The position numbers and the translations under genes are program-made. The notes under the pieces are model-generated. The model did no database searches and had not been told where the DNA came from. It worked only from the letters and a program-made list of their open reading frames with translations. From Thermoanaerobaculia bacterium (GTDB lineage Bacteria > Acidobacteriota > Thermoanaerobaculia > Multivoradales > J023), in the NCBI GenBank assembly GCA_030431255.1, contig JAUIJL010000023.1:1-64000 (forward strand): 64,000 bases of DNA. Direction: 5' to 3'. Shown here in pieces: positions 22,500-53,133 of the stretch (position 1 is the stretch's first letter; each line of letters begins with the position of its first letter).

Positions 22500-23657
22500 G
22501 TGATCATGGATGAAGTCGAGAAGGCTATCAGAGGCATTCAAGAAGGCGAAGATGGCAATGAACACTTCGAAGTGATCTTTCACGCCTACTACAGGGCTAT
22601 TAGCGATTTCTTCCAGCGTAGAGGCTATGACGACGAGCTAAGTCGAGACTTGGTTCAAGTAGTCTTCATGAGAAGCTTTGCTTCACTGAAGGAGTACCGA
22701 CGTGAGGGGTTCAATAATTGGATCTTGGCGATCGCTAGGCACACGCACCTGAATCAAATGCGGGACCAGCACGCTTTGAAGCGGAGAGCTGTCGAGGTTT
22801 CGATGTCTTCATTTGCTGAAGACACTATGCCAGCTAGCACGCCAGTTTTTTCTGATCCTCCTGAAGACCCATTGAAAGCGCTTCTCCAGAATGAAGGCAG
22901 CGAGCTTGTTTGGAATGCTGTTGAAGCTCTTCCTTCCCGGATGAGAGAGATGGTAAGAATGCGGTACGCTGGCGGCGAGACTCTTAGAAGTATCGCAGAA
23001 GCGACGGAAGTTCCGGTATCGACCGTAAAGTCCTTGCTTCATCAAGCTAGGCGAAAGGCGGCAGCCCTTGTCGAAAGCGCTGAGACTTCCTTGGTGCTCG
23101 GAGTGCCTTTGGATCCGGCGCAGGATACAGATGGAGATGCTAAAGAAACCACTCTCATATCTGGGCTGATTCAAACCTGCTCTTTTGAGTTAGTCAAATG
23201 GCTGGTTGCACATCCCGAGGATCTGTACGAGGTACATCCTGGAACATTCGAGAGGATTGTTGCTGAGATTTTCGAGTCCGAAGGATTCGAAGTGGAAGTG
23301 GTTTCGTCCTGGAATCAGGAGGATGGCGGAGTGGACCTGTTGGCAGTCAAGAGGTGCTCAGCCCTTGAGGATATCCGAATGGCGATTCAGTGTAAGCGAC
23401 ATGCAGCGTCAAATCGTGTTTCTGCCGAGCCAGTGCGCGCGCTCTCGGGGATTCTGGACCGATTCAGGGCCCATGCAGGAGTGGTAGCCACTACCAGCCA
23501 TTTCACGGTTCCAGCTCTTCAGGAAACCAAGAAATATCATTGGAGAATTTCTTTGAGGGATCATGACAACATCGTTCGGAGCCTAAGAGACCTTGGTGGA
23601 TACTCATTGACCGAGTCAGGGTTGTGGATGCCCAACGAATCGGTAGTAGAGGTATGA
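22500..23657 (+). CDS. ECF-type sigma factor fused to an Mrr-like PD-(D/E)XK nuclease domain
   Basis: 385 residues. Residues ~25-95 match sigma-70 region 2 (FEVIFHAYYRAISDFFQRRG, LSRDLVQVVFMRSFASL, FNNWILAIARHTHLNQMR). Residues ~135-195 match region 4 (ALPSRMREMVRMRYAGGETL, then IAEATEVPVSTVKSLLHQAR). After a linker, residues ~240-370 form an Mrr-like restriction fold: GTFERIVAEIFESEGFEVEV, then GGVDLLAV with Asp279, then IQCKRH with Gln297 and Lys299, and GVVATTSHFT. The nuclease site D...QxK is intact. I know of no described sigma-Mrr fusion. The protein might direct a nuclease to transcription complexes, or sense phage DNA and switch on neighbouring genes. GTG at 22500 sits 9 nt after AGGA; ATG at 22506 is the alternative start. 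First gene of cassette array 1. Confidence 0.85.
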   Translation: MIMDEVEKAIRGIQEGEDGNEHFEVIFHAYYRAISDFFQRRGYDDELSRDLVQVVFMRSFASLKEYRREGFNNWILAIARHTHLNQMRDQHALKRRAVEVSMSSFAEDTMPASTPVFSDPPEDPLKALLQNEGSELVWNAVEALPSRMREMVRMRYAGGETLRSIAEATEVPVSTVKSLLHQARRKAAALVESAETSLVLGVPLDPAQDTDGDAKETTLISGLIQTCSFELVKWLVAHPEDLYEVHPGTFERIVAEIFESEGFEVEVVSSWNQEDGGVDLLAVKRCSALEDIRMAIQCKRHAASNRVSAEPVRALSGILDRFRAHAGVVATTSHFTVPALQETKKYHWRISLRDHDNIVRSLRDLGGYSLTESGLWMPNESVVEV

Positions 23658-23667
23658 CGCATAAGCC

Positions 23668-23729
23668 GCAGGACCCAGAAATTCCAGCCGCACGCGCTGC
23701 GCGCGGCGCTGAATTTCGAGCCGTTAGAT
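23668..23729 (+). other. attC recombination site of cassette 1
   Basis: R'' GCAGGAC (23668-23674) and R' GTTAGAT (23723-23729) enclose an imperfect hairpin (GAAATTCCAGCCGCACGCG paired with CGCGCGGCGCTGAATTTC). Length is 62 bp, within the usual attC range. R'' matches the reverse complement of the cassette's first bases GTTCTGC at six of seven positions. Confidence 0.75.
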
Positions 23730-23789
23730 GCAAAGTGGCGTTGGGGCTAGGCCGGCGTAGTAGTTCTAGATAGGAGCAAAGACAGGAAA

Positions 23790-26700
23790 ATGGCGAATCT
23801 GCAGATGCGTTCTGGAGGAATCTCGGATCAAGGTTTAGGTGGAGACGTGCCTCGAATTGAGGTCGACAAGTTCGTTCGCTCGATAGGGGTGAACAAAACC
23901 TCTCCTCACGCTCTATTTCTGGGCGCTGGCTCATCCATGTCCTCTGGCGTCCCTTCAGCGGAGAGCTGCCTGTGGCAGTGGAAGAGATCGATTTTCTCGA
24001 CCAATAATCCAGGCCTGGAGGAGCAGGTTTCGGAGATCTCACTCCCCGCTGTCAAGAATAGAATCGACAAATGGCTCCGCTTAAATGGCTATCTCCCTGA
24101 CGAGGGCCAAGACGAATATTCATACTTTATCGAAGAGTGTCTCCCAATAGCCGATGATCGTCGTCGCTTCTTTCAGACTTGGGTTCGTAGAGCACGCCCA
24201 CATATCGGCTACCGGCTTCTTTGTCTCTTGGCAGAATCTGAGATCTTCCGGAGTGTCTGGACGACAAATTTCGACGGATTGGTAGCGCGCGCAGCGGCTG
24301 ATTCTGACTTAGTTCCTATCGAAATAGGGATTGATTGCAAAAAGCGAGTTTTCAGGCAGCCCGAGCGCAATGAGCTACTTTGCATTTCCCTTCATGGAGA
24401 CTATCGATACGATTCCCTAAAGAATACAAGTGAAGAGTTAAGGACCCAGGAAGCCGCACTTCAGAAATCGCTGATTTCGACTCTAAGAACCCATTCGCTC
24501 ATTGTCAACGGGTATAGTGGGCGTGACCCTTCTGTAATGCGTGCCCTCAAGCAGGCCATTATGCAGGAGGATGTTAGGGGAAAGTTCTATTGGTGTGGAT
24601 TTTCTGACGAGCCCAATGACGAGGTTGCTAACCTCCTTACCAAGGCCACGAAGGAAGGCAAGGAAATTTTTTATGTTCCAGGCGTTGCGTTTGATGACTT
24701 GATGTCTCGCTTAGCTCTGCATTGCCTCGAAGGGGCCGCTCTAGCCAGTGCAAGACGACTGCTTGGGGGAAATAGCGACAGTAGTAATGTTCGAAGGAGC
24801 AAGTTTTCAATCCCACAGGCTCGACCTACGGCGATCATCAAGAGCAACGCTTGGTCGGTTCGTTGTCCTTCGGAGATGTTTGAATTCCAGCTGAAAGAGT
24901 GGCCGTCGGAGAAAGTCTGGAGGTGGCTTGAGGAAAGAACCGCTGGCCATGATGTGGTTGCCGTTCCTTTTCGGAAAGTTCTCGCACTTGGCACCCTTGA
25001 TGGTGTTCGAGAAGCGTTTGGAGATCAAATTAGCGGAGAGATAGTAAGGGTTCCAATAGCCGAAAGAGATCTTCGATTCGAAGATGGCGCTGTGAACTGC
25101 CTGCTCCGAAGAGCGTTGATTCGGAGCATCGCTGCAACCAAAGGGCTGGAGACGGACGGAAACTGGCGTGTTTGGGAGAGACAGAGTACTCGAACTGAGC
25201 GTGAAGGCAATCGTTCTTACCAGGTGCATTCAGCTGCACATTTGGCCCTTCGTAAAATCGGTGATCAGTTGTACCTTACCCTAGATCCGACTGTGTTCTT
25301 CCCAGAAGAAGGGCCTGAGAATGCAGACTCGATCAGAAAACTACGGATGCGGATCCTCGGATACCAACATAATGACAAGTTCAATGCTGCGTTGAATTAT
25401 TGGCGAAAACTGCTTCTTGGAAAGAAAGGCTCGGTGGAGTTTGAATTCCCTGTAAATTCAGCAGCCTTCAAGTACACAGTAAGGTCCGCCCCAGCGTTCG
25501 CTGCTGTTCATCAGCCAGGGCGCAAGGCAGTGCAGCTGTCGAACCGGTTCAAGGGGCTAATCAGGCATCGCGGGATTGAAATTCCTGAGCAACCTCTTCG
25601 GTTCGCGGGAGGAGACAGGCCAGGAAGGGACTCCTTGCCGCTTCGCGGATTGTCCCAGAATGGCCCGTTTGATGGAGCCCCGACTCAGGGGTCAGTCTTC
25701 AATCGGATAAAGATTGGTGTAATTTGCCCCAAGCCTGAAGCGGTTTTTCTTGAACGCTTTCTTTCGGAAGCTAGCCAAAGGCATGCACCTTTGCGAGGAT
25801 CCAAGGAAGAGTACTTGGTTCTGTATGGCGGATTTGAGCAGATCTATCGGACCCCGATTTCGATTCCTAGCCGTTCTGACGAATTTTGGTACACCCTCCC
25901 TGAGATAGCTTCGAACTTGAGTGACAGCGAGGGTTCTTTGGAACTGTCTAGACAGATAAGAGATGGCGTTTCGGCTCTTTCATCGTTAGGGCATTCCGTA
26001 ATCCTTATCCACACCCCAGATCGATGGAGGCGTTGGCGAGGATATGAATCCGAAGATGAAGTCTTCGATGTGCACGACTTCATAAAGGCATTTTGTATTC
26101 AGCGTGGAATCGCGACACAGTTCTTGGACGAAGACACCACACGCTATACCGATAAATGCCGTGTGTGGTGGTGGCTGTCGGTTGCGTTCTACGCCAAGGC
26201 AATGCGTACCCCGTGGGTTCTAGATGGTATCAACTCTGAAACAGCTTTTGTTGGCCTCGGATACTCAATTGACAGACACGCCGCCAAGGGGCAACATGTC
26301 GTCCTTGGGTGCAGCCACCTCTACAATGCTCAAGGGCAAGGCTTGCAGTTTCGACTAAGTCGCATTGAGGATCCGATCATCAAGAACGGGAATCCGTTTC
26401 TCTCTTATCAGGATGCTCGGCGTCTGGGAGAAACGATACGAACCCTCTTTTGGGAATCACACCTAAAGCTCCCACGTCGTGTGGTAATTCACAAGCAGAC
26501 TCCATTTAGAAAAGATGAGCAACTAGGGTTGTATGCTGGCCTCGGGGGAATAGAGGAGTTAGAGCTACTAGAGCTAAGTTTCGATGCATCTCTTCGCTAC
26601 ATTAGCTCTCAACCAACAGCCAACGGAATTGTCGAAGGTCGTTTCCCGGTCCGTCGGGGCACCACCGTGAGGTTGACAGATCATGAAGCTTTGCTGTGGA

Positions 26701-26975
26701 TTCACGGCTCGGCTGAAGCGGCGAAGGCGAACTGGACCTATTTTCAAGGTAAACGGAGGATCCCAACTCCCATAATGCTTCGGCGATACGGCGGAACTTC
26801 AGATCTCGCTACCCTAACGAGTGAAATTTTAGGTCTATCAAAAATGGACTGGAATTCTGGTGATCTATACGCCAAGCTTCCAGCTACAGTTCAGTCTTCC
26901 AAGCGAATTGCTCGAATTGGGAAGTTGCTCGACAGATTCAGCAATGCTTCCTACGATTATAGGCTCTTCATGTGA
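23790..26975 (+). CDS. single-chain SIR2-APAZ-short prokaryotic Argonaute (SPARSA-type defence protein)
   Basis: 1061 residues. N-terminal SIR2 domain (~30-320): FLGAGSSMSSGVPS, WTTNFDGL, LHGDYR (catalytic His) and VNGYSGRDPS. The middle (~340-640) fits the APAZ region. The C-terminal ~370 residues fit a MID-PIWI domain: WRRWRGYESEDEVFDVHDFI, FVGLGYSIDR, HVVLGCSHLYNAQGQ, LPRRVVIHKQTPF and LYAGLGGIEELELLEL. The first PIWI catalytic Asp is replaced (GLGYS where slicers have G-x-D), as expected for inactive short Argonautes. In known SPARSA systems, guide-directed recognition of invader DNA triggers SIR2-mediated NAD+ depletion and abortive infection. Both split and fused forms are known; this is the fused form. 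It sits alone in an integron cassette between attC sites at 23668-23729 and 27015-27074. Confidence 0.88.
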   Translation: MANLQMRSGGISDQGLGGDVPRIEVDKFVRSIGVNKTSPHALFLGAGSSMSSGVPSAESCLWQWKRSIFSTNNPGLEEQVSEISLPAVKNRIDKWLRLNGYLPDEGQDEYSYFIEECLPIADDRRRFFQTWVRRARPHIGYRLLCLLAESEIFRSVWTTNFDGLVARAAADSDLVPIEIGIDCKKRVFRQPERNELLCISLHGDYRYDSLKNTSEELRTQEAALQKSLISTLRTHSLIVNGYSGRDPSVMRALKQAIMQEDVRGKFYWCGFSDEPNDEVANLLTKATKEGKEIFYVPGVAFDDLMSRLALHCLEGAALASARRLLGGNSDSSNVRRSKFSIPQARPTAIIKSNAWSVRCPSEMFEFQLKEWPSEKVWRWLEERTAGHDVVAVPFRKVLALGTLDGVREAFGDQISGEIVRVPIAERDLRFEDGAVNCLLRRALIRSIAATKGLETDGNWRVWERQSTRTEREGNRSYQVHSAAHLALRKIGDQLYLTLDPTVFFPEEGPENADSIRKLRMRILGYQHNDKFNAALNYWRKLLLGKKGSVEFEFPVNSAAFKYTVRSAPAFAAVHQPGRKAVQLSNRFKGLIRHRGIEIPEQPLRFAGGDRPGRDSLPLRGLSQNGPFDGAPTQGSVFNRIKIGVICPKPEAVFLERFLSEASQRHAPLRGSKEEYLVLYGGFEQIYRTPISIPSRSDEFWYTLPEIASNLSDSEGSLELSRQIRDGVSALSSLGHSVILIHTPDRWRRWRGYESEDEVFDVHDFIKAFCIQRGIATQFLDEDTTRYTDKCRVWWWLSVAFYAKAMRTPWVLDGINSETAFVGLGYSIDRHAAKGQHVVLGCSHLYNAQGQGLQFRLSRIEDPIIKNGNPFLSYQDARRLGETIRTLFWESHLKLPRRVVIHKQTPFRKDEQLGLYAGLGGIEELELLELSFDASLRYISSQPTANGIVEGRFPVRRGTTVRLTDHEALLWIHGSAEAAKANWTYFQGKRRIPTPIMLRRYGGTSDLATLTSEILGLSKMDWNSGDLYAKLPATVQSSKRIARIGKLLDRFSNASYDYRLFM

Positions 26976-27014: not shown

Positions 27015-27074
27015 ATCTAACCCCCGGCTCGAGCGCACGACGCGGCGCCGGCGCTCAGCCGCGAGGCGTTGGGC
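27015..27074 (+). other. attC recombination site of the Argonaute cassette
   Basis: R'' ATCTAAC (27015-27021) and R' GTTGGGC (27068-27074) both fit the consensus RYYYAAC/GTTRRRY. The interior is a GC-rich imperfect hairpin (GGCTCGAGCGC...GCGCTCAGCC). R'' is the exact reverse complement of GTTAGAT at the start of this cassette. Length is 60 bp. Confidence 0.85.
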
Positions 27075-28598: not shown

Positions 28599-29456
28599 AT
28601 GAGATCGAAGCCCTATTACTCGATGAGGACGGGGAAGAATCCTACCCCTGCTCGTTTTGACTTGCCTGCAGCGCGGGACATGTTTCAAAAACTCTTCCTC
28701 TACTTTGAAGACGAAGGTTATTTTCAAGAAGCTCTGGGATATGAGTGTGTAGACGAAGGGTTCGTCCCGGGCTCGCTCGGCGCTGATCTCCAAGGTACCG
28801 TTCTTCTTGAACTACGCAAAGAAAATTTGACGCCAATTCGAGATCGGATATTCGAATACTCAGAAGAAGATCTATTCGATATGGTCGAGTTTCTCTACGA
28901 TCATTGTTCGAAGCCGACACAGCGGCATTTCCACAATTTCAACAACTGCGGATGGCACTGCCAGGCGTTTGACAGCGACGTTGGTCGCGAGGAGTTCCGG
29001 CAGAAAACAAACAGAGTCTTGGCTTTGTACGAGGATGGATTCGAACTAGACAATGAAGGTGAGATTTTGGCGCTAGCAGAACAAGGGCTTGAAGAACTCT
29101 TTGACTCTCCGCTGCCGACCTCTGACCCGGACAATATAGGGGCTCGCGTTGACGCTGCTATCAGGAAATTTCGCCGCTATCGCTCTTCAGTAGAAGATCG
29201 CCGAGATGCAATTCGGGACCTTGCGGATGCTTTGGAGTACCTAAGGCCTCAGCTAAAGCAGGTCCTCTATAGACGGGATGAGGCTGACCTTTTCGATATC
29301 GCCAACAACTTTGGCATCAGGCATCATGAACCCAAGCAAAAGACCAAATACGACAAATCTATCTGGTACGATTGGATGTTCTATTACTATCTCGCGACTA
29401 TTCATGCTTCGGTCCGGTTGGTCGAACGAAAGGAAGCGCAAACTGACCCAGCCTGA
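28599..29456 (+). CDS. unknown protein, probable cassette gene (285 aa)
   Basis: No family recognised. The protein is soluble, acidic and rich in aromatic residues, with a mostly helical look. A central block carries HFHNFNNCGWHCQAFD, and the C-terminus carries NNFGIRHHEPKQKTKYD then YDWMFYYYLATIHASVRLVE. The final helix with H and R residues is reminiscent of HEPN- or Abi-type phage-exclusion proteins, but a clear R-x4-6-H motif was not identified. Orientation and composition match the cassette genes before it, and an attC-like hairpin lies 33 bp upstream. No attC was found after its stop, so the array border is uncertain. Confidence 0.5.
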   Translation: MRSKPYYSMRTGKNPTPARFDLPAARDMFQKLFLYFEDEGYFQEALGYECVDEGFVPGSLGADLQGTVLLELRKENLTPIRDRIFEYSEEDLFDMVEFLYDHCSKPTQRHFHNFNNCGWHCQAFDSDVGREEFRQKTNRVLALYEDGFELDNEGEILALAEQGLEELFDSPLPTSDPDNIGARVDAAIRKFRRYRSSVEDRRDAIRDLADALEYLRPQLKQVLYRRDEADLFDIANNFGIRHHEPKQKTKYDKSIWYDWMFYYYLATIHASVRLVERKEAQTDPA

Positions 29457-48720: not shown

Positions 48721-49617
48721 ATGACTATGGTTCAGGACACCAGGCTGGCGGCCTGGGCTCAAGGTCCATCTGTTACTGAAGAGCAACGAGTAGAGAATGC
48801 CCAGCGGATGGTTCGAGAAGCTATTCAGCAAAGCCCTGCGCTTCAGGCGAGGAACATCGCCGTCTTTGTTCAGGGTTCTCATCGCAATAGAGTCAATGTG
48901 GTGCAAGGCAGCGATGTAGATCTTGGGGTGCTTTGCTACGACACCTATTTCCCACACTATCCTGACGACAACGTCAAGGCCTTAGCCGAGAGGACTGCCC
49001 TGCCCGCGACCTATACATACTCGGTGTTTAAGGATGAGATCGAACAAGCGTTGGTCGCTAAGTTCGGCCGATTCTCCGTGAGTCGAGGGCGTAAGGCCTT
49101 TGATGTCACGGGAAACACTTATCGAGTTGAAGCCGATGTTGCAGCCTTCTTCGAACACCGTCGGTATACGAGCGCTACTCGCTATCACTCTGGCGTCGAG
49201 ATGATCCCTGACGATTACCAGCCCCCTAGGATTCGGAACTGGCCAGAACAGCACTACGGAAACGGTGTTGCGAAGAACCAACGGACGTACCGCAGATACA
49301 AGCGAGTTGTCAGGATGCTTAAGAAGCTACGGCTCGAGATGTCCGAGAATGGTATTCAGTCGGCGACAAACACTCCAGGGTTTCTGATTGAGTGTCTAGT
49401 CTTCAACGCTCCCGATACAACGTTTGGCAGCAGCGAAAACAGAGAGTTGCTCAAGTCCGCTCTCGCATGGCTGTATTCGAATACCCAGCGCGATGAGGAG
49501 TGCAACGAATGGGGGGAGGTGAGCGAGCTGAAGTACATCTTCAGAGGATCACAACCTTGGACGCGAGCTAGCGCAAACCAGTTCCTACTTGACGCATGGG
49601 CGTACTTCGGTTTCTAA
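48721..49617 (+). CDS. CBASS cyclic oligonucleotide synthase (CD-NTase)
   Basis: 298 residues. The nucleotidyltransferase signature is complete: FVQGSHRNRVNVVQGSDVDL gives the GS pair (52-53) and Asp65/Asp67, and RVEADVAAFF gives the third acidic residue (near 138). A helical C-terminal half with AKNQRTYRRYKRVVRMLKKL is the usual CD-NTase partner domain. On phage infection such enzymes make a cyclic di- or trinucleotide that activates an effector. The effector gene (Cap15-like) originally began 3 bp after this stop; an IS3 element now separates them. The clade cannot be fixed by eye, though Cap15 partners are often CdnE- or related enzymes. It is the first gene after platform 2. Confidence 0.88.
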   Translation: MTMVQDTRLAAWAQGPSVTEEQRVENAQRMVREAIQQSPALQARNIAVFVQGSHRNRVNVVQGSDVDLGVLCYDTYFPHYPDDNVKALAERTALPATYTYSVFKDEIEQALVAKFGRFSVSRGRKAFDVTGNTYRVEADVAAFFEHRRYTSATRYHSGVEMIPDDYQPPRIRNWPEQHYGNGVAKNQRTYRRYKRVVRMLKKLRLEMSENGIQSATNTPGFLIECLVFNAPDTTFGSSENRELLKSALAWLYSNTQRDEECNEWGEVSELKYIFRGSQPWTRASANQFLLDAWAYFGF

Positions 49618-49620
49618 AGA

Positions 49621-49623
49621 ATG
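49621..49623 (+). repeat. 3-bp target duplication (ATG), left copy
   Basis: ATG immediately before the left end of the IS3 element, repeated at 50971-50973 after its right end. Before insertion a single ATG stood here, the start codon of the Cap15 gene. Confidence 0.75.
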
Positions 49624-49649
49624 TGGACTTGCCCCGGTTCAGTGGACAG
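49624..49649. repeat. IS3 left inverted repeat
   Basis: Begins TGGACTTGCCCCGGTTCAGT and ends GGACAG. It pairs with 50945-50970 at 22 of 26 positions. Confidence 0.9.
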
Positions 49650-49657
49650 TTTAGTTG

Positions 49658-50605
49658 TTATGGGTTTTCAAATAGCTGAGGAAAATCAGTCGTAGTAGCT
49701 CCGGATTCCGGAACCGCGATTTTCCACAAATTTTCCGCAGGATATCCACAGGTTTCTTCACAGGTTGCGGATTCTTCATGCTCGAATTGCATCGGACTCC
49801 TCTGGCCCAGCGCCGAATGACGGCGGTATCGATTGTAAAAGCTCTCAATGAACTCGAACACCGCGCTCCGCGCCTCTTGTCGACTGCGGAAGGTGGACCG
49901 GTCGATGAGCTCACATTCCAGAGTCGCGAAGAAGCTCTCGCACATCGCGTTGTCGTAGCAGTCGCCCACCGAACCCGTAGATGGCTGCACTCCAGCCACT
50001 TTACAGCGCCTACCGAACGCGATCGACGTGTACTGGCTCCCTTGATCGGAATGATGGATCACCGAGGACGGACGCCGCTGCTCCAGGGCCATGTCCAAGG
50101 CCTCCAGCACCAACTCGGTTCGCAAGTGCGGGCGCATGCACCAGCCGACGACTCTTCGACTCCAGACATCCAGCACCACCGCCAGGTACAGAAAACCCGC
50201 CCAAGTCGGAATATAGGTGATGTCCGCGATCCACAGGCGATCCGGACCCTCCGCGGTGAAATCCCGGTCCACCAGATCCGGGATCGAACGACTCTCCGGA
50301 TTGCGAACGGTCGTGCGCCGGGCTTTCCGGCGGCACACGCCCCGCAAGTCGTCGGCTTTCATCAGTCTTGCCACCCGCTTTCGGCTCACCCGTTCACCCT
50401 CGGCCACCAGATCTGCGGTCACCCGCGGGGATCCGTAGGTCCCTCGAGATGCCTTGTGGAAGCCTCTGATTTTCTCGGTCAGCTCCCTGTCTCGCACCTC
50501 ACGGTCCGAAGGACGGCGGCCGAGCCATGCATAGTAGCCGCTCTTGGAGACTCCCAATACACGGCACAACGTGCTCACTTTGTGCTCGGCCCGGTGCGCG
50601 CTCAC
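49658..50605 (-). CDS. IS3-family transposase orfB (DDE catalytic subunit)
   Basis: 315 residues from GTG 50605, overlapping the orfA stop by 4 bp. HTH_21-like N-terminus (KVSTLCRVLGVSKSGYYAWL), then an RVE integrase core with the DDE triad: LWIADITYIPT, IHHSDQGSQYTS and DNAMCESFFATLECELI; the end FIESFYNRYRRHSALGQRSP is typical. The full enzyme is made as an OrfAB fusion by -1 frameshifting at a run of seven A (50668-50662), where the -1 frame is open straight into orfB. Confidence 0.93.
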   Translation of the reverse strand: MSAHRAEHKVSTLCRVLGVSKSGYYAWLGRRPSDREVRDRELTEKIRGFHKASRGTYGSPRVTADLVAEGERVSRKRVARLMKADDLRGVCRRKARRTTVRNPESRSIPDLVDRDFTAEGPDRLWIADITYIPTWAGFLYLAVVLDVWSRRVVGWCMRPHLRTELVLEALDMALEQRRPSSVIHHSDQGSQYTSIAFGRRCKVAGVQPSTGSVGDCYDNAMCESFFATLECELIDRSTFRSRQEARSAVFEFIESFYNRYRRHSALGQRSPMQFEHEESATCEETCGYPAENLWKIAVPESGATTTDFPQLFENP

Positions 50606-50916
50606 GAATTCGAACCCCGCGACGGGATCGACCCGGCCTCCTGCGCGAACCAGGCCGCGGCTTTTTTTAGGATTTCCTTTTCCTCGCGTAGCCGGCGATT
50701 CTCACGTCGCAATTGCCGTAGCTCCTCGCGTTCGGCGGTGGTCAAGCCGTCCTCACGGCGACCTTCGTCGAGGTCTGCTTGGGCGACCCATTTACGAATG
50801 GTGACCGCCGACGGCTCATACTGCTTGGCGAGTTTGGCAGGGCTGTTGCCGGCCCGAGCGAGCTCGACGATCTCTTTCTTGAATTCTGCTGGATATTCGG
50901 GGCGTGATTTCGGCAT
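50602..50916 (-). CDS. IS3-family transposase orfA (DNA-binding subunit)
   Basis: 104 residues from ATG 50916 with AAGGAGG upstream. Helix-turn-helix (YPAEFKKEIVELARAGNSPA, then AVTIRKWV) followed by a leucine-zipper-like coiled coil (ELRQLRRENRRLREEKEILK). Near its 3' end the codons CTA AAA AAA G form an A7 slippery site for -1 frameshifting into orfB. OrfA alone usually regulates transposition. Confidence 0.92.
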   Translation of the reverse strand: MPKSRPEYPAEFKKEIVELARAGNSPAKLAKQYEPSAVTIRKWVAQADLDEGRREDGLTTAEREELRQLRRENRRLREEKEILKKAAAWFAQEAGSIPSRGSNS

Positions 50917-50944
50917 CGGGACCTCCTTGCTCGAAAGAGCATAC

Positions 50945-50970
50945 CTGTCCACGAAACCGGGGCAACTTCA
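50945..50970. repeat. IS3 right inverted repeat
   Basis: Read on the minus strand it begins TGAAGTTGCCCCGGTTTCGT and ends GGACAG, matching the left repeat with four mismatches. The plus-strand ATG at 50971 follows directly. Confidence 0.9.
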
Positions 50971-51666
50971 ATGATATCAAGATTGCATATATCTTCTTTT
51001 GTCGGTCTCACGGTATTCTCGTGGCTACTGGTTCTTTGGGTTGATGGCCAGCCGGTTCTGAGCCTAGCTTTCTTGAAGCCCTTCAGCCTTGTCGTGAGTC
51101 TGATCGTCGGGTGTTCACTAGTCTTCAATCGGTGGGCATGGGCATGGCCGATCTTCTCAGGCTGGTATGTCAATCGCCCTGACTTGAGGGGCACTTGGCG
51201 TGTCCGGCTGGTCAGTGATTGGGTAGACCCAGAAACCAAGAAGCGGGTTGATCCCCAGGTTTGTTATTTGGTTGTAAGGCAGACCCTTGTGGGTCTATCT
51301 GCGCGTCTAGTGACGGCCGAATCAACATCGAAGTCGATTGCGTATTGTTTGACTGAAGAAGAGGAAGGGATCTATCGGCTAGCAGTGATCTATCGCAACG
51401 AGCCGAAGATTGAGTTACAGGGGAACCGCAGCGACATCCATCATGGTTCCTTCTTGGTAGAAGTTACTGGAAAGGATGTACTTGAAATGGACGGCCACTA
51501 CTGGACCGATCGTGGCACCCGTGGCGAGCTTACTACGCTAGGGTGGAAGAACGGCAGCTTCGACACATTTGGACGAGCACAAGAGGCTTTCGAATTGGAG
51601 CTCGAAAGCGAACCCAGCCCTTCCAGCGAAATCGCTGCGGCGCTTCGCGCCTCCGCGAATCGCTGA
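50971..51666 (+). CDS. Cap15-type CBASS effector (2TM plus beta-barrel)
   Basis: 231 residues. Two membrane segments near the N-terminus (SFVGLTVFSWLLVLWV and FSLVVSLIVGCSLVF) are followed by a beta-rich domain with LRGTWRVRLVSDW, LVVRQTLVGLSARLVTAEST, LAVIYRNEP, HHGSFLVEV and GHYWTDRGTRGEL. This is the pattern of the SMODS-associating 2TM, beta-strand-rich effector family (Cap15). Such effectors bind the CD-NTase product, oligomerise and damage the inner membrane, killing the infected cell. The ATG is the target duplication of the IS3 element, so the ORF is intact but now has IS-end sequence in place of its native leader. The last codons run into the cassette's attC (51607-51683). Confidence 0.87.
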   Translation: MISRLHISSFVGLTVFSWLLVLWVDGQPVLSLAFLKPFSLVVSLIVGCSLVFNRWAWAWPIFSGWYVNRPDLRGTWRVRLVSDWVDPETKKRVDPQVCYLVVRQTLVGLSARLVTAESTSKSIAYCLTEEEEGIYRLAVIYRNEPKIELQGNRSDIHHGSFLVEVTGKDVLEMDGHYWTDRGTRGELTTLGWKNGSFDTFGRAQEAFELELESEPSPSSEIAAALRASANR

Positions 51667-51728: not shown

Positions 51729-52448
51729 ATGAATACCAACAACTTTAACGGCCTTCAGCGGGATGGTGATCCCTTTGAGGAGCTGCGTAGGACTCTTGAG
51801 GTCGGAGACTTGGACGCGGTCAAGCGAGCCGCCGATTTCCTTCATCGGACTGGTCGCGACCCCGTTGCCGGGTTGTCAAGCATCGCTAGGGAAGTAGGGC
51901 CAGAGTCTTCGCAGGGTCGTTGCGCACTCACTGCCCTGGCAGACCTGGACTCCGCGACCGCGCATAAGGTCGCTCAGCAACTAGGGGTCTCAGTTGGTGC
52001 GGCCCTTCCGGAGCGGGGACTCAGTAGCAGTGTGACGACCCCGCAGAAACGGGACGCTGACTCGACGCGGAACTGGGTGATCGCTTTCGTGGTAACGCTC
52101 GCAATCTTGTGGCCGCTATATTCGATATACCGCTTCCAAAATCCGATACCGCCAAAGCCGCCGGAGCCGAAGCCGCCGTGGACTGACGAGTACGTGGAGC
52201 TCGAGGCCGTTACGCTCTGCCAACTGGCCGCAAAGCGGCGACTGCGCGACCCTGACTCCGCGGACTTTCCCTTCCTCTCGCCTCCCAGTGTCGACGTCTC
52301 CTACTCCGACAAGGTGACCGTGAACGGCTACATGCATGCGAGCAACGGGCTTGGCTTGAAGGTTCGGGTGGACTTTTCCTGCTCTCTTCAGGCAGACCGC
52401 GAAGCTCGGAACATGTCACTGCTCGATGCTCAGCTCGTCCAGCGGTGA
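51729..52448 (+). CDS. unknown single-pass membrane protein, cassette gene (239 aa)
   Basis: ATG 51729. The N-terminal ~110 residues are soluble and helical (FEELRRTLEVGDLDAVKRAA, ALADLDSATAHKVAQQLG). A membrane segment follows (NWVIAFVVTLAILWPLYSIY), then a Pro-rich stretch (PIPPKPPEPKPPW) and a C-terminal ~80-residue domain (VTLCQLAAKRRLRDPDSADF, then NGYMHASNGLGLKVRVDFSC). The C-terminal part resembles small periplasmic beta-rich domains, but I cannot name a family. The cassette holds this gene only. A defence role is not shown. Confidence 0.65.
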   Translation: MNTNNFNGLQRDGDPFEELRRTLEVGDLDAVKRAADFLHRTGRDPVAGLSSIAREVGPESSQGRCALTALADLDSATAHKVAQQLGVSVGAALPERGLSSSVTTPQKRDADSTRNWVIAFVVTLAILWPLYSIYRFQNPIPPKPPEPKPPWTDEYVELEAVTLCQLAAKRRLRDPDSADFPFLSPPSVDVSYSDKVTVNGYMHASNGLGLKVRVDFSCSLQADREARNMSLLDAQLVQR

Positions 52449-52463
52449 ATGCCGAAAGATACC

Positions 52464-52524
52464 GCCGAACCAGGCCAGTGGAGCGGACTCGCTTCGCGCG
52501 CCGCTCATCGCCGAGACGTTACGC
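52464..52524 (+). other. attC recombination site of cassette B
   Basis: R'' GCCGAAC (52464-52470) is the exact reverse complement of GTTCGGC at the start of this cassette (51677-51683). R' is GTTACGC (52518-52524). The interior has an AGTGGAGCGG / CCGCTCAT stem. Length is 61 bp. Confidence 0.8.
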
Positions 52525-52545
52525 CGCACAAGGGAGCGCCGCAGA

Positions 52546-53070
52546 ATGACTGACGCAGTGTTTGAAACCGAGAGGCTGGTCGTTCGGCGTTGGCGCGACT
52601 CTGACCTGCCCTATCTGATGGCCGTCTACGGAGACGCCGAAGCCGTTCAGTGGGTGGGCGATGGTCAACCGATCACGGAGAGCGAATGTCGTGAGTGGCT
52701 TGTAGTAACCCGCCGAAACTACGAGAAGCGCGGCTACGGCATGTTCGCGGTCGAGCTCAAGTCTGAGCCTGGTGTCATAGGGTTCTGCGGCATCGTCCAT
52801 CCCGGAGGCCAAGAGGAGCCTGAGGTCAAGTACGCCTACCTACGCAGGTTCTGGGGGCAGGGCATAGCCACAGAAGCTCTGCGTGGCCTCGTTGGCTACG
52901 GCTCTGCCGCACATGGCATTACGCGTTTCATCGCCACCACTGCGCAGGAGAACAGCGCTTCGCACGCAGTGCTCGCGAAGGCGGGCATGAGCCGAGGCGA
53001 GCTGCGGCAAGACGAAGATGGCGAGTTTACGCAGCTCTTCGAGTACGAGGTGCCGGGAAGTGCGACCTAA
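52546..53070 (+). CDS. GNAT-family N-acetyltransferase, cassette gene
   Basis: 174 residues from ATG 52546, with GGAG upstream. RimJ/RimL-like: FETERLVVRRWRDSDLPYLM, VIGFCGIVHPGG, VKYAYLRRFWGQGIATEALR (Q-x-x-G-x-A acetyl-CoA loop) and FIATTAQENSASHAVLAKAG. It should move an acetyl group from acetyl-CoA to an amine or alcohol; the substrate is unknown. Acetyltransferases are common integron cassette cargo. The stop TAA lies inside the R'' box of the downstream attC, as often seen in compact cassettes. Confidence 0.88.
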   Translation: MTDAVFETERLVVRRWRDSDLPYLMAVYGDAEAVQWVGDGQPITESECREWLVVTRRNYEKRGYGMFAVELKSEPGVIGFCGIVHPGGQEEPEVKYAYLRRFWGQGIATEALRGLVGYGSAAHGITRFIATTAQENSASHAVLAKAGMSRGELRQDEDGEFTQLFEYEVPGSAT

Positions 53071-53128
53071 CCCCTCGCTCAAGCGCCGCCGGGCACGGAG
53101 CCCGCGCGGCGCTTTTCAGACGTTTCAG
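53065..53128 (+). other. attC-like site ending array 2
   Basis: R'' ACCTAAC (53065-53071) fits RYYYAAC; R' GTTTCAG (53122-53128) is degenerate. A long stem lies between (CTCAAGCGCCGC / GCGGCGCTTTTCAG). The next gene is a core gene on the minus strand, so this is the last visible cassette boundary. Confidence 0.65.
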
Positions 53129-53133
53129 ATGGC

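Follow-up and report, generated by a model that had tools for sequence, protein, structure and literature searches.

Restriction nucleases of the Mrr family such as EcoKMrr, together with the nuclease domains of MspJI and AspBHI, share a PD-(D/E)XK domain in which E, D and K are conserved, and their N-terminal modules are winged-helix or SRA-like DNA readers. According to PMC3874153, EcoKMrr shows a variant of the motif and the nuclease domain of MspJI belongs to the Mrr family; Mrr-like REases also serve as effectors in conflict systems (PMC7159879). ECF sigma factors with a C-terminal extension, in which sigma2-sigma4 is followed by a further domain, are covered in PMC8999054, and neither "nuclease" nor "restriction" is mentioned in that source. 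An ECF-like domain is found as an exchangeable N-terminal module in the TRADD-N conflict proteins, which have TRADD-N and C-terminal repeats; no ECF-Mrr protein is named in that passage (PMC8195603). A sigma-HTH-like domain is present in BrxL (PMC12839542) and a YciI-sigma fusion was described (PMC7641849). The earlier note on the DNA analysed here, made from its letters alone, knew of no characterised protein combining a sigma factor and an Mrr-like nuclease. Our sequence searches and a survey of the open literature agree with this, and among the matches listed in that survey none describes a fusion of sigma with Mrr or of NusG with a nuclease.

The gene compared with these systems lies in a stretch of 64,000 nucleotides (the window), which is part of a contig of 142,873 bases from a genome with a completeness rating of 98.83%. 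Regions 2 and 4 of an ECF-type sigma factor had been read from its letters as being joined in frame to an Mrr-like domain, and this description holds: in the domain search, the models Sigma70_r2, Sigma70_r4_2 and Mrr_cat each exceeded the Pfam cut-off within a single frame of 385 aa (Table 1), Mrr_cat matching residues 244-361 (E 3.4e-23, 82.4 bits, cut-off 21). The NCBIfam model sigma70-ECF spans residues 23-186 (E 2.8e-21), and residues 7-186 align with the best two ECF sigma factors of solved structure. In contrast to the Mrr restriction nucleases, the N-terminal module is a sigma factor and not a winged-helix or SRA-like reader (at E up to 0.1, the fusion had 11 Pfam families listed, with neither SRA nor Mrr_N among them), and PGT replaces PRK before the first acidic residue. 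In contrast to the extended ECF sigma factors, the extension is a nuclease-type domain which keeps its catalytic residues. The PADLOC models PDC-S02 and type IV mREase match the Mrr part (best PDC-S02, E 3.5e-14), but only over about residues 240-362, with the sigma part outside. The protein is a real and rare fusion, a variant of the modular Mrr nucleases; the mechanism proposed for it below is attractive, but not proven.

Table 1. Features of the sigma-Mrr gene and of the DNA following it, in window positions.
Feature	Residues	Position	Strand	Basis or remark
Sigma-Mrr fusion gene		22500..23657	+	One open frame, 385 aa; Mrr_cat after sigma regions 2 and 4
Sigma region 2	27-90	22578..22769	+	Pfam Sigma70_r2, E 4.4e-6, 26.8 bits (cut-off 24)
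Sigma region 4	135-186	22902..23057	+	Pfam Sigma70_r4_2, E 5.8e-13, 48.7 bits (cut-off 25.7)
Linker region	187-228	23058..23183	+	Residues 193-210 pLDDT <50; helix from 211 (AlphaFold2)
Mrr-type PD-(D/E)XK domain	229-365	23184..23594	+	E251, D279, Q297, K299; Pfam and AlphaFold2 fold
C-terminal tail with GLWMP		23595..23654	+	Pattern search and AlphaFold2
Hairpin with GTTAGAT		about 23660..23735	+	Directly after the fusion stop; if an attC at all, a degenerate one
SIR2 domain and prokaryotic Argonaute, one 1061-aa protein		23790..26975	+	SIR2_2; PADLOC models
Best attC-like site of the window		27015..27074	+	After the Argonaute gene; extra unpaired base, L'' side

The frame starts with GTG, ends with TGA and contains no internal stop codon. 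GC content is 0.504 in the sigma half, 0.505 in the linker and 0.513 in the Mrr half, compared to 0.613 in the window; the three parts being alike, there is no compositional seam where the halves join. A frameshift or seam uniting two separate genes was ruled out by the uninterrupted frame and the uniform GC content. More generally, the fusion might be without function, as a decaying gene, an assembly join or a recent chance event, and a single known copy as well as the long branch of the Mrr half in a tree of 29 rows would fit this assumption. We consider it very improbable, since the 385-aa frame is open throughout, GC is uniform over both halves, the catalytic residues are conserved and the join is located at a boundary where other members of the Mrr family also change module.

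The C-terminal half is, with confidence, an Mrr-type PD-(D/E)XK nuclease domain in which the catalytic residues are present and activity is predicted. D279, Q297 and K299 are found at the positions previously claimed, with the correction that E251 also belongs to the conserved acidic/lysine set. E251, D279 and K299 are invariant in 20 of the 20 rows of alignment A8 (query included; L075, L082 and L084 of the 22 Mrr rows were omitted) and also in all seven rows of alignment A1. At the position of Q297, the other 19 rows of A8 contain E (17) or D (2), and in a wider set of 53 Mrr frames the query itself accounts for one, Q is found in 20, E or D in 28, and four yielded no motif. A catalytic QxK is present in MspJI. 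The near-invariant residues R248, K249 and E252 of the Mrr family are lost in the fusion (A8). In the AlphaFold2 model, block pLDDT for residues 231-360 is 86-98, but 60 at 271-280; the tail forms short strands at 368-370 and 376-378 (block pLDDT 77 and 59). The best Foldseek matches of the Mrr half are MspJI (E 6.4e-6) and AspBHI (E 1.0e-5), and VIA-align superposed it on AF1548 (Z 15.3, rmsd 2.5, 113 aligned), AspBHI (Z 13.6, rmsd 2.9, 130 aligned) and MspJI (Z 13.0, rmsd 3.5, 137 aligned). With a sequence profile of the family, AspBHI is detected (E 5.8e-6), which has E where the fusion has Q297, followed by dehydrogenases, which are unlikely to be related, at about 2e-3 and MspJI at 0.086. 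RPB5 subunits also appear among the fold matches; the REase-like fold which they have was not counted as evidence.

The sequences nearest to the sigma half, among those searched, are those of ECF sigma factors from the host genome and family, the best being the resident ECF C6:76084 with 37% identity. Judged by similarity, the sigma half may have come from an ECF gene of the host; GC content speaks mildly against a recent local origin, as eight ECF genes checked (six from the host genome) have 0.54-0.63 compared to 0.50 in the fusion. The fusion agrees with the consensus at 25 of 34 conserved sigma columns, the median of 37 related ECFs, which were chosen as matches of the query, being 29 with only three of them lower. 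D50, Q53, F56, W74, V176, K177 and R184 are kept. In region 2.2, the fusion has V54 in a column which contains E (26), D (7), A (3) or T (1) in the 37 ECFs. The part of region 2.2 around this position contacts RNA polymerase, thus V54 and the below-median column agreement indicate that polymerase binding may be weakened. Structure prediction gives a divided result: AlphaFold2 returns a confident PD-(D/E)XK fold for the Mrr half, but the sigma half is mostly of low confidence (block pLDDT about 82 for residues 1-50 and 32-66 for residues 51-200). The latter is explained by a prediction without sigma relatives, since the two sigma rows of alignment A7 were aligned wrongly and A7 was discarded; further scans for sigma rows gave one locus in one scan and none in two others.

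V54 and the other departures at conserved columns would also be expected if the sigma part had lost RNA polymerase binding and were reused as a DNA-binding or adaptor domain giving the nuclease its target specificity only. The TRADD-N conflict proteins, which use an ECF-like HTH as N-terminal module (PMC8195603), offer a parallel. However, such a reuse appears unlikely, as both regions (2 and 4) are present with ECF sigma scores, Q53, W74, V176 and K177 are kept, and it is not obvious why a module for DNA binding alone should have region 2.

Most Mrr relatives start aligning at about residue 199-234 of the fusion, and what precedes the nuclease differs among them. In a genome of the host's family, a STAS domain (41.6 bits, cut-off 22.6) is joined to the same Mrr family (L038, 2584-3471); in L068 (3584-4447) and L070 (3593-4459), TIR (also matched as ThsB_TIR) is joined to Mrr and DxK is found in place of ExK. 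Both STAS and TIR exceed the Pfam cut-offs; another N-terminal part is AAA/STAND-like, under the cut-offs in the one protein shown. The census of these modules covered 36 proteins. Since the N-terminal modules differ, it is the nuclease which stays constant in this family and its N-terminal partner which is exchanged.

The best-scoring Mrr relative is L065 (ORF 1214-2332) from an Ignavibacteriales MAG, which had the lowest E-value of 22 confirmed loci in a GTDB scan of low recall. It shares with the fusion the Mrr family (36% identity over 200 aligned positions) and a GLW[ML]P tail, which was absent from the other Mrr frames covered by a pattern search; it differs by ExK in place of QxK and by a likely elongation-factor module in place of the sigma factor, which would also come from a family binding RNA polymerase. 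Residues 216-332 match Mrr_cat and residues 22-98 match Pfam NusG with 22.8 bits (cut-off 22.2). For residues 23-174, the NCBIfam models UpxY (E 2.1e-10, 40.8 bits, cut-off 100) and RfaH (E 3.8e-8, 33.5 bits, cut-off 144.5) gave matches below their cut-offs. Among solved structures, one chain, an Spt5, matched the second part of this N-terminal region in sequence (E 0.019). The structure model of the N-terminal half is poor; nucleases and RPB5 subunits make up most of the 50 fold matches listed for L065, which also include two chains of Spt5/DSIF (E 0.04-0.08) and do not establish a NusG fold. The N-terminal module of L065 is likely, but with a score near the threshold, to be NusG/UpxY-like. 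Phylogenetically, the pair of fusion and L065 was neither recovered nor rejected in the tree of 29 rows (p-AU 0.446), in which the branch of the query is long. This tree omitted L108, L030, L088, L029 and the near-duplicate L082. In the first tree (34 rows), the query grouped with L108, both on branches flagged as long. Both trees omitted copies of the query, L117, the truncated L084 and frames of <45 bits.

The reading we put forward as the likeliest of those weighed, still tentatively and as somewhat less than probable, is that the fusion is a mobile single-gene Mrr-type defence nuclease, tethered to RNA polymerase by an exchangeable ECF sigma module. The sigma part would bind core RNA polymerase, the flexibly linked Mrr domain would thereby be brought to promoter or transcribed DNA, and it would cut invading DNA which is not accepted as self. 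Within an ECF holoenzyme, sigma region 4 ends close to the -35 DNA, thus a flexible linker at this point would place the nuclease on upstream DNA. RNA polymerase binding, nuclease activity, target, mobility and defence role of the fusion are what we infer from the following. A defence nuclease is favoured by the domains, the fold, E251/D279/K299, the defence genes nearby and the low GC content unlike that of the window. The tether finds its main support in the NusG-Mrr protein, in which the same nuclease type is paired with what is likely the module of a second RNA polymerase-binding family. L065 also lends indirect support to the suggestion in the earlier note that the nuclease might be placed at promoters. 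Against the tether stand V54 and the low agreement at conserved sigma columns, the lost R248/K249/E252, the near-threshold NusG match with its poor model, the tree which does not recover the pair and gives the query a long branch, the mostly low confidence of the sigma model and the single examples, as one protein each was found of sigma-Mrr and NusG-Mrr. A wider class of nucleases riding on RNA polymerase, in which sigma as well as NusG/UpxY factors are joined to the same Mrr type and transcription of the invading DNA decides both whether and where it is cut, is speculative and on the doubtful side. If it existed, transcription-coupled restriction could recognise foreign DNA by its active expression, with no need for a reader of sequence or methylation, and the two small single-gene proteins make this idea testable.

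As a rather unlikely alternative to the tethered nuclease, the protein may be an ECF sigma factor which is regulated through its C-terminal extension; the Mrr fold would then sense DNA (breaks or modified bases) and switch the sigma factor, and the output would be transcription instead of cleavage. At least 26 ECF groups have members with N- or C-terminal extensions which are predicted to be regulatory (PMC8999054), a non-exhaustive scan of the neighbours showed no anti-sigma gene, and Q297 in place of E/D together with the lost R248/K249 could indicate a domain for binding only. However, E251, D279 and K299 are retained, Q at the position of Q297 is frequent among the Mrr proteins of greater distance (20 of 53 frames, query apart), and the nuclease is constant across the relatives while the N-terminal modules vary. 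An ECF-like promoter pattern was absent upstream of the fusion and Argonaute genes and present in 2 of 7 intergenic stretches; this is a weak test without random control, and the pattern may not reflect the specificity of this sigma factor. The control of cassette expression which had been considered for the fusion likewise gains no support from this weak test.

A database search for the same fusion was run and, within its scope, revealed no second sigma-Mrr protein. None was present among the matches listed in 59 genomes of relatives (up to 32 candidates scored per genome), in 396 genomes of the phylum (seven candidates scored per genome), in the same 396 genomes searched with the Mrr profile (four scored per genome; about the best 30 of 63 places), in 148 genomes of the class or in 72 of the order. 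In the phylum of L065, 8 of 296 genomes had an Mrr match, none of them sigma-Mrr; in that of L069, 34 of 294 genomes had one, without a sigma-Mrr in the best 30 of 39 places. Of the PLSDB plasmids, 23 records matched, none covering 80% of the fusion, and no record covers 80% of L065; 13 phage records matched, again none covering 80% of the fusion. Three scans of viral contigs gave no sigma-Mrr, one of them yielding one Mrr relative. Among GTDB contigs, a first scan gave no locus and the second gave the 22 confirmed loci, none of them sigma-Mrr; recall was low, as 533 stretches had matched the two peptide patterns used. Conversely, Mrr was absent in twenty stretches chosen mainly for long ECF open frames. 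Over all fetched loci, a sigma domain is found on 1 of 105 sequence-distinct Mrr-matching frames, namely the fusion itself, which is not an unbiased rate since loci were chosen as best matches.

Concerning the surroundings, the Argonaute mentioned in the earlier note is encoded by the next gene, in one protein with a SIR2 domain: the PADLOC pAgo model matches over nearly the full length with 1256.5 bits and Aga_SIR2-PNTD1-PNTD2 with 639.8 bits. A DUF7002 gene is located further along. The GC content of the Argonaute gene is 0.506, like that of the fusion gene and unlike the window, and the uniform low GC of the fusion fits its acquisition as one unit. The gene at 28599-29456, with a match to PDC-S32 (E 2.3e-14) and a sub-threshold match to AbiJ_NTD4, is possibly another defence gene.

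That the fusion is the first gene of a cassette array was borne out in part. The hairpin after its stop codon is a poor attC match and is outside the 12 best attC-like sites per strand, but the top site of the window follows the Argonaute gene; it scored 21.3, the next two (19.5 and 19.3) being inside distant long frames (own score, without shuffled control). One integron integrase was found over the cut-off in the host genome (415.2 bits, cut-off 265), on another contig (C51:27385-28335), and a scan judged by eye gave no convincing attC sites beside it. Integron cassettes are therefore a plausible, not a proven, reading of the locus. Another, weak attC-like site, on the minus strand at 53065-53130, is at the end of an acetyltransferase gene (52426-53070) and its score of 18.3 falls within the scan background. 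Elsewhere in the host genome, at C50:191571-213805, four recombinase-like frames of 384-385 aa are arranged in a row about 7 kb apart; the integrase model matches every one of them in two separate pieces, with scores below its cut-off. Further along the window, at 48721-51666, CBASS-like genes are found, an oligonucleotide cyclase (PADLOC, 390.8 bits) and a 2TM effector of the Cap15 type, separated by a 398-aa gene with zero Pfam or PADLOC matches.
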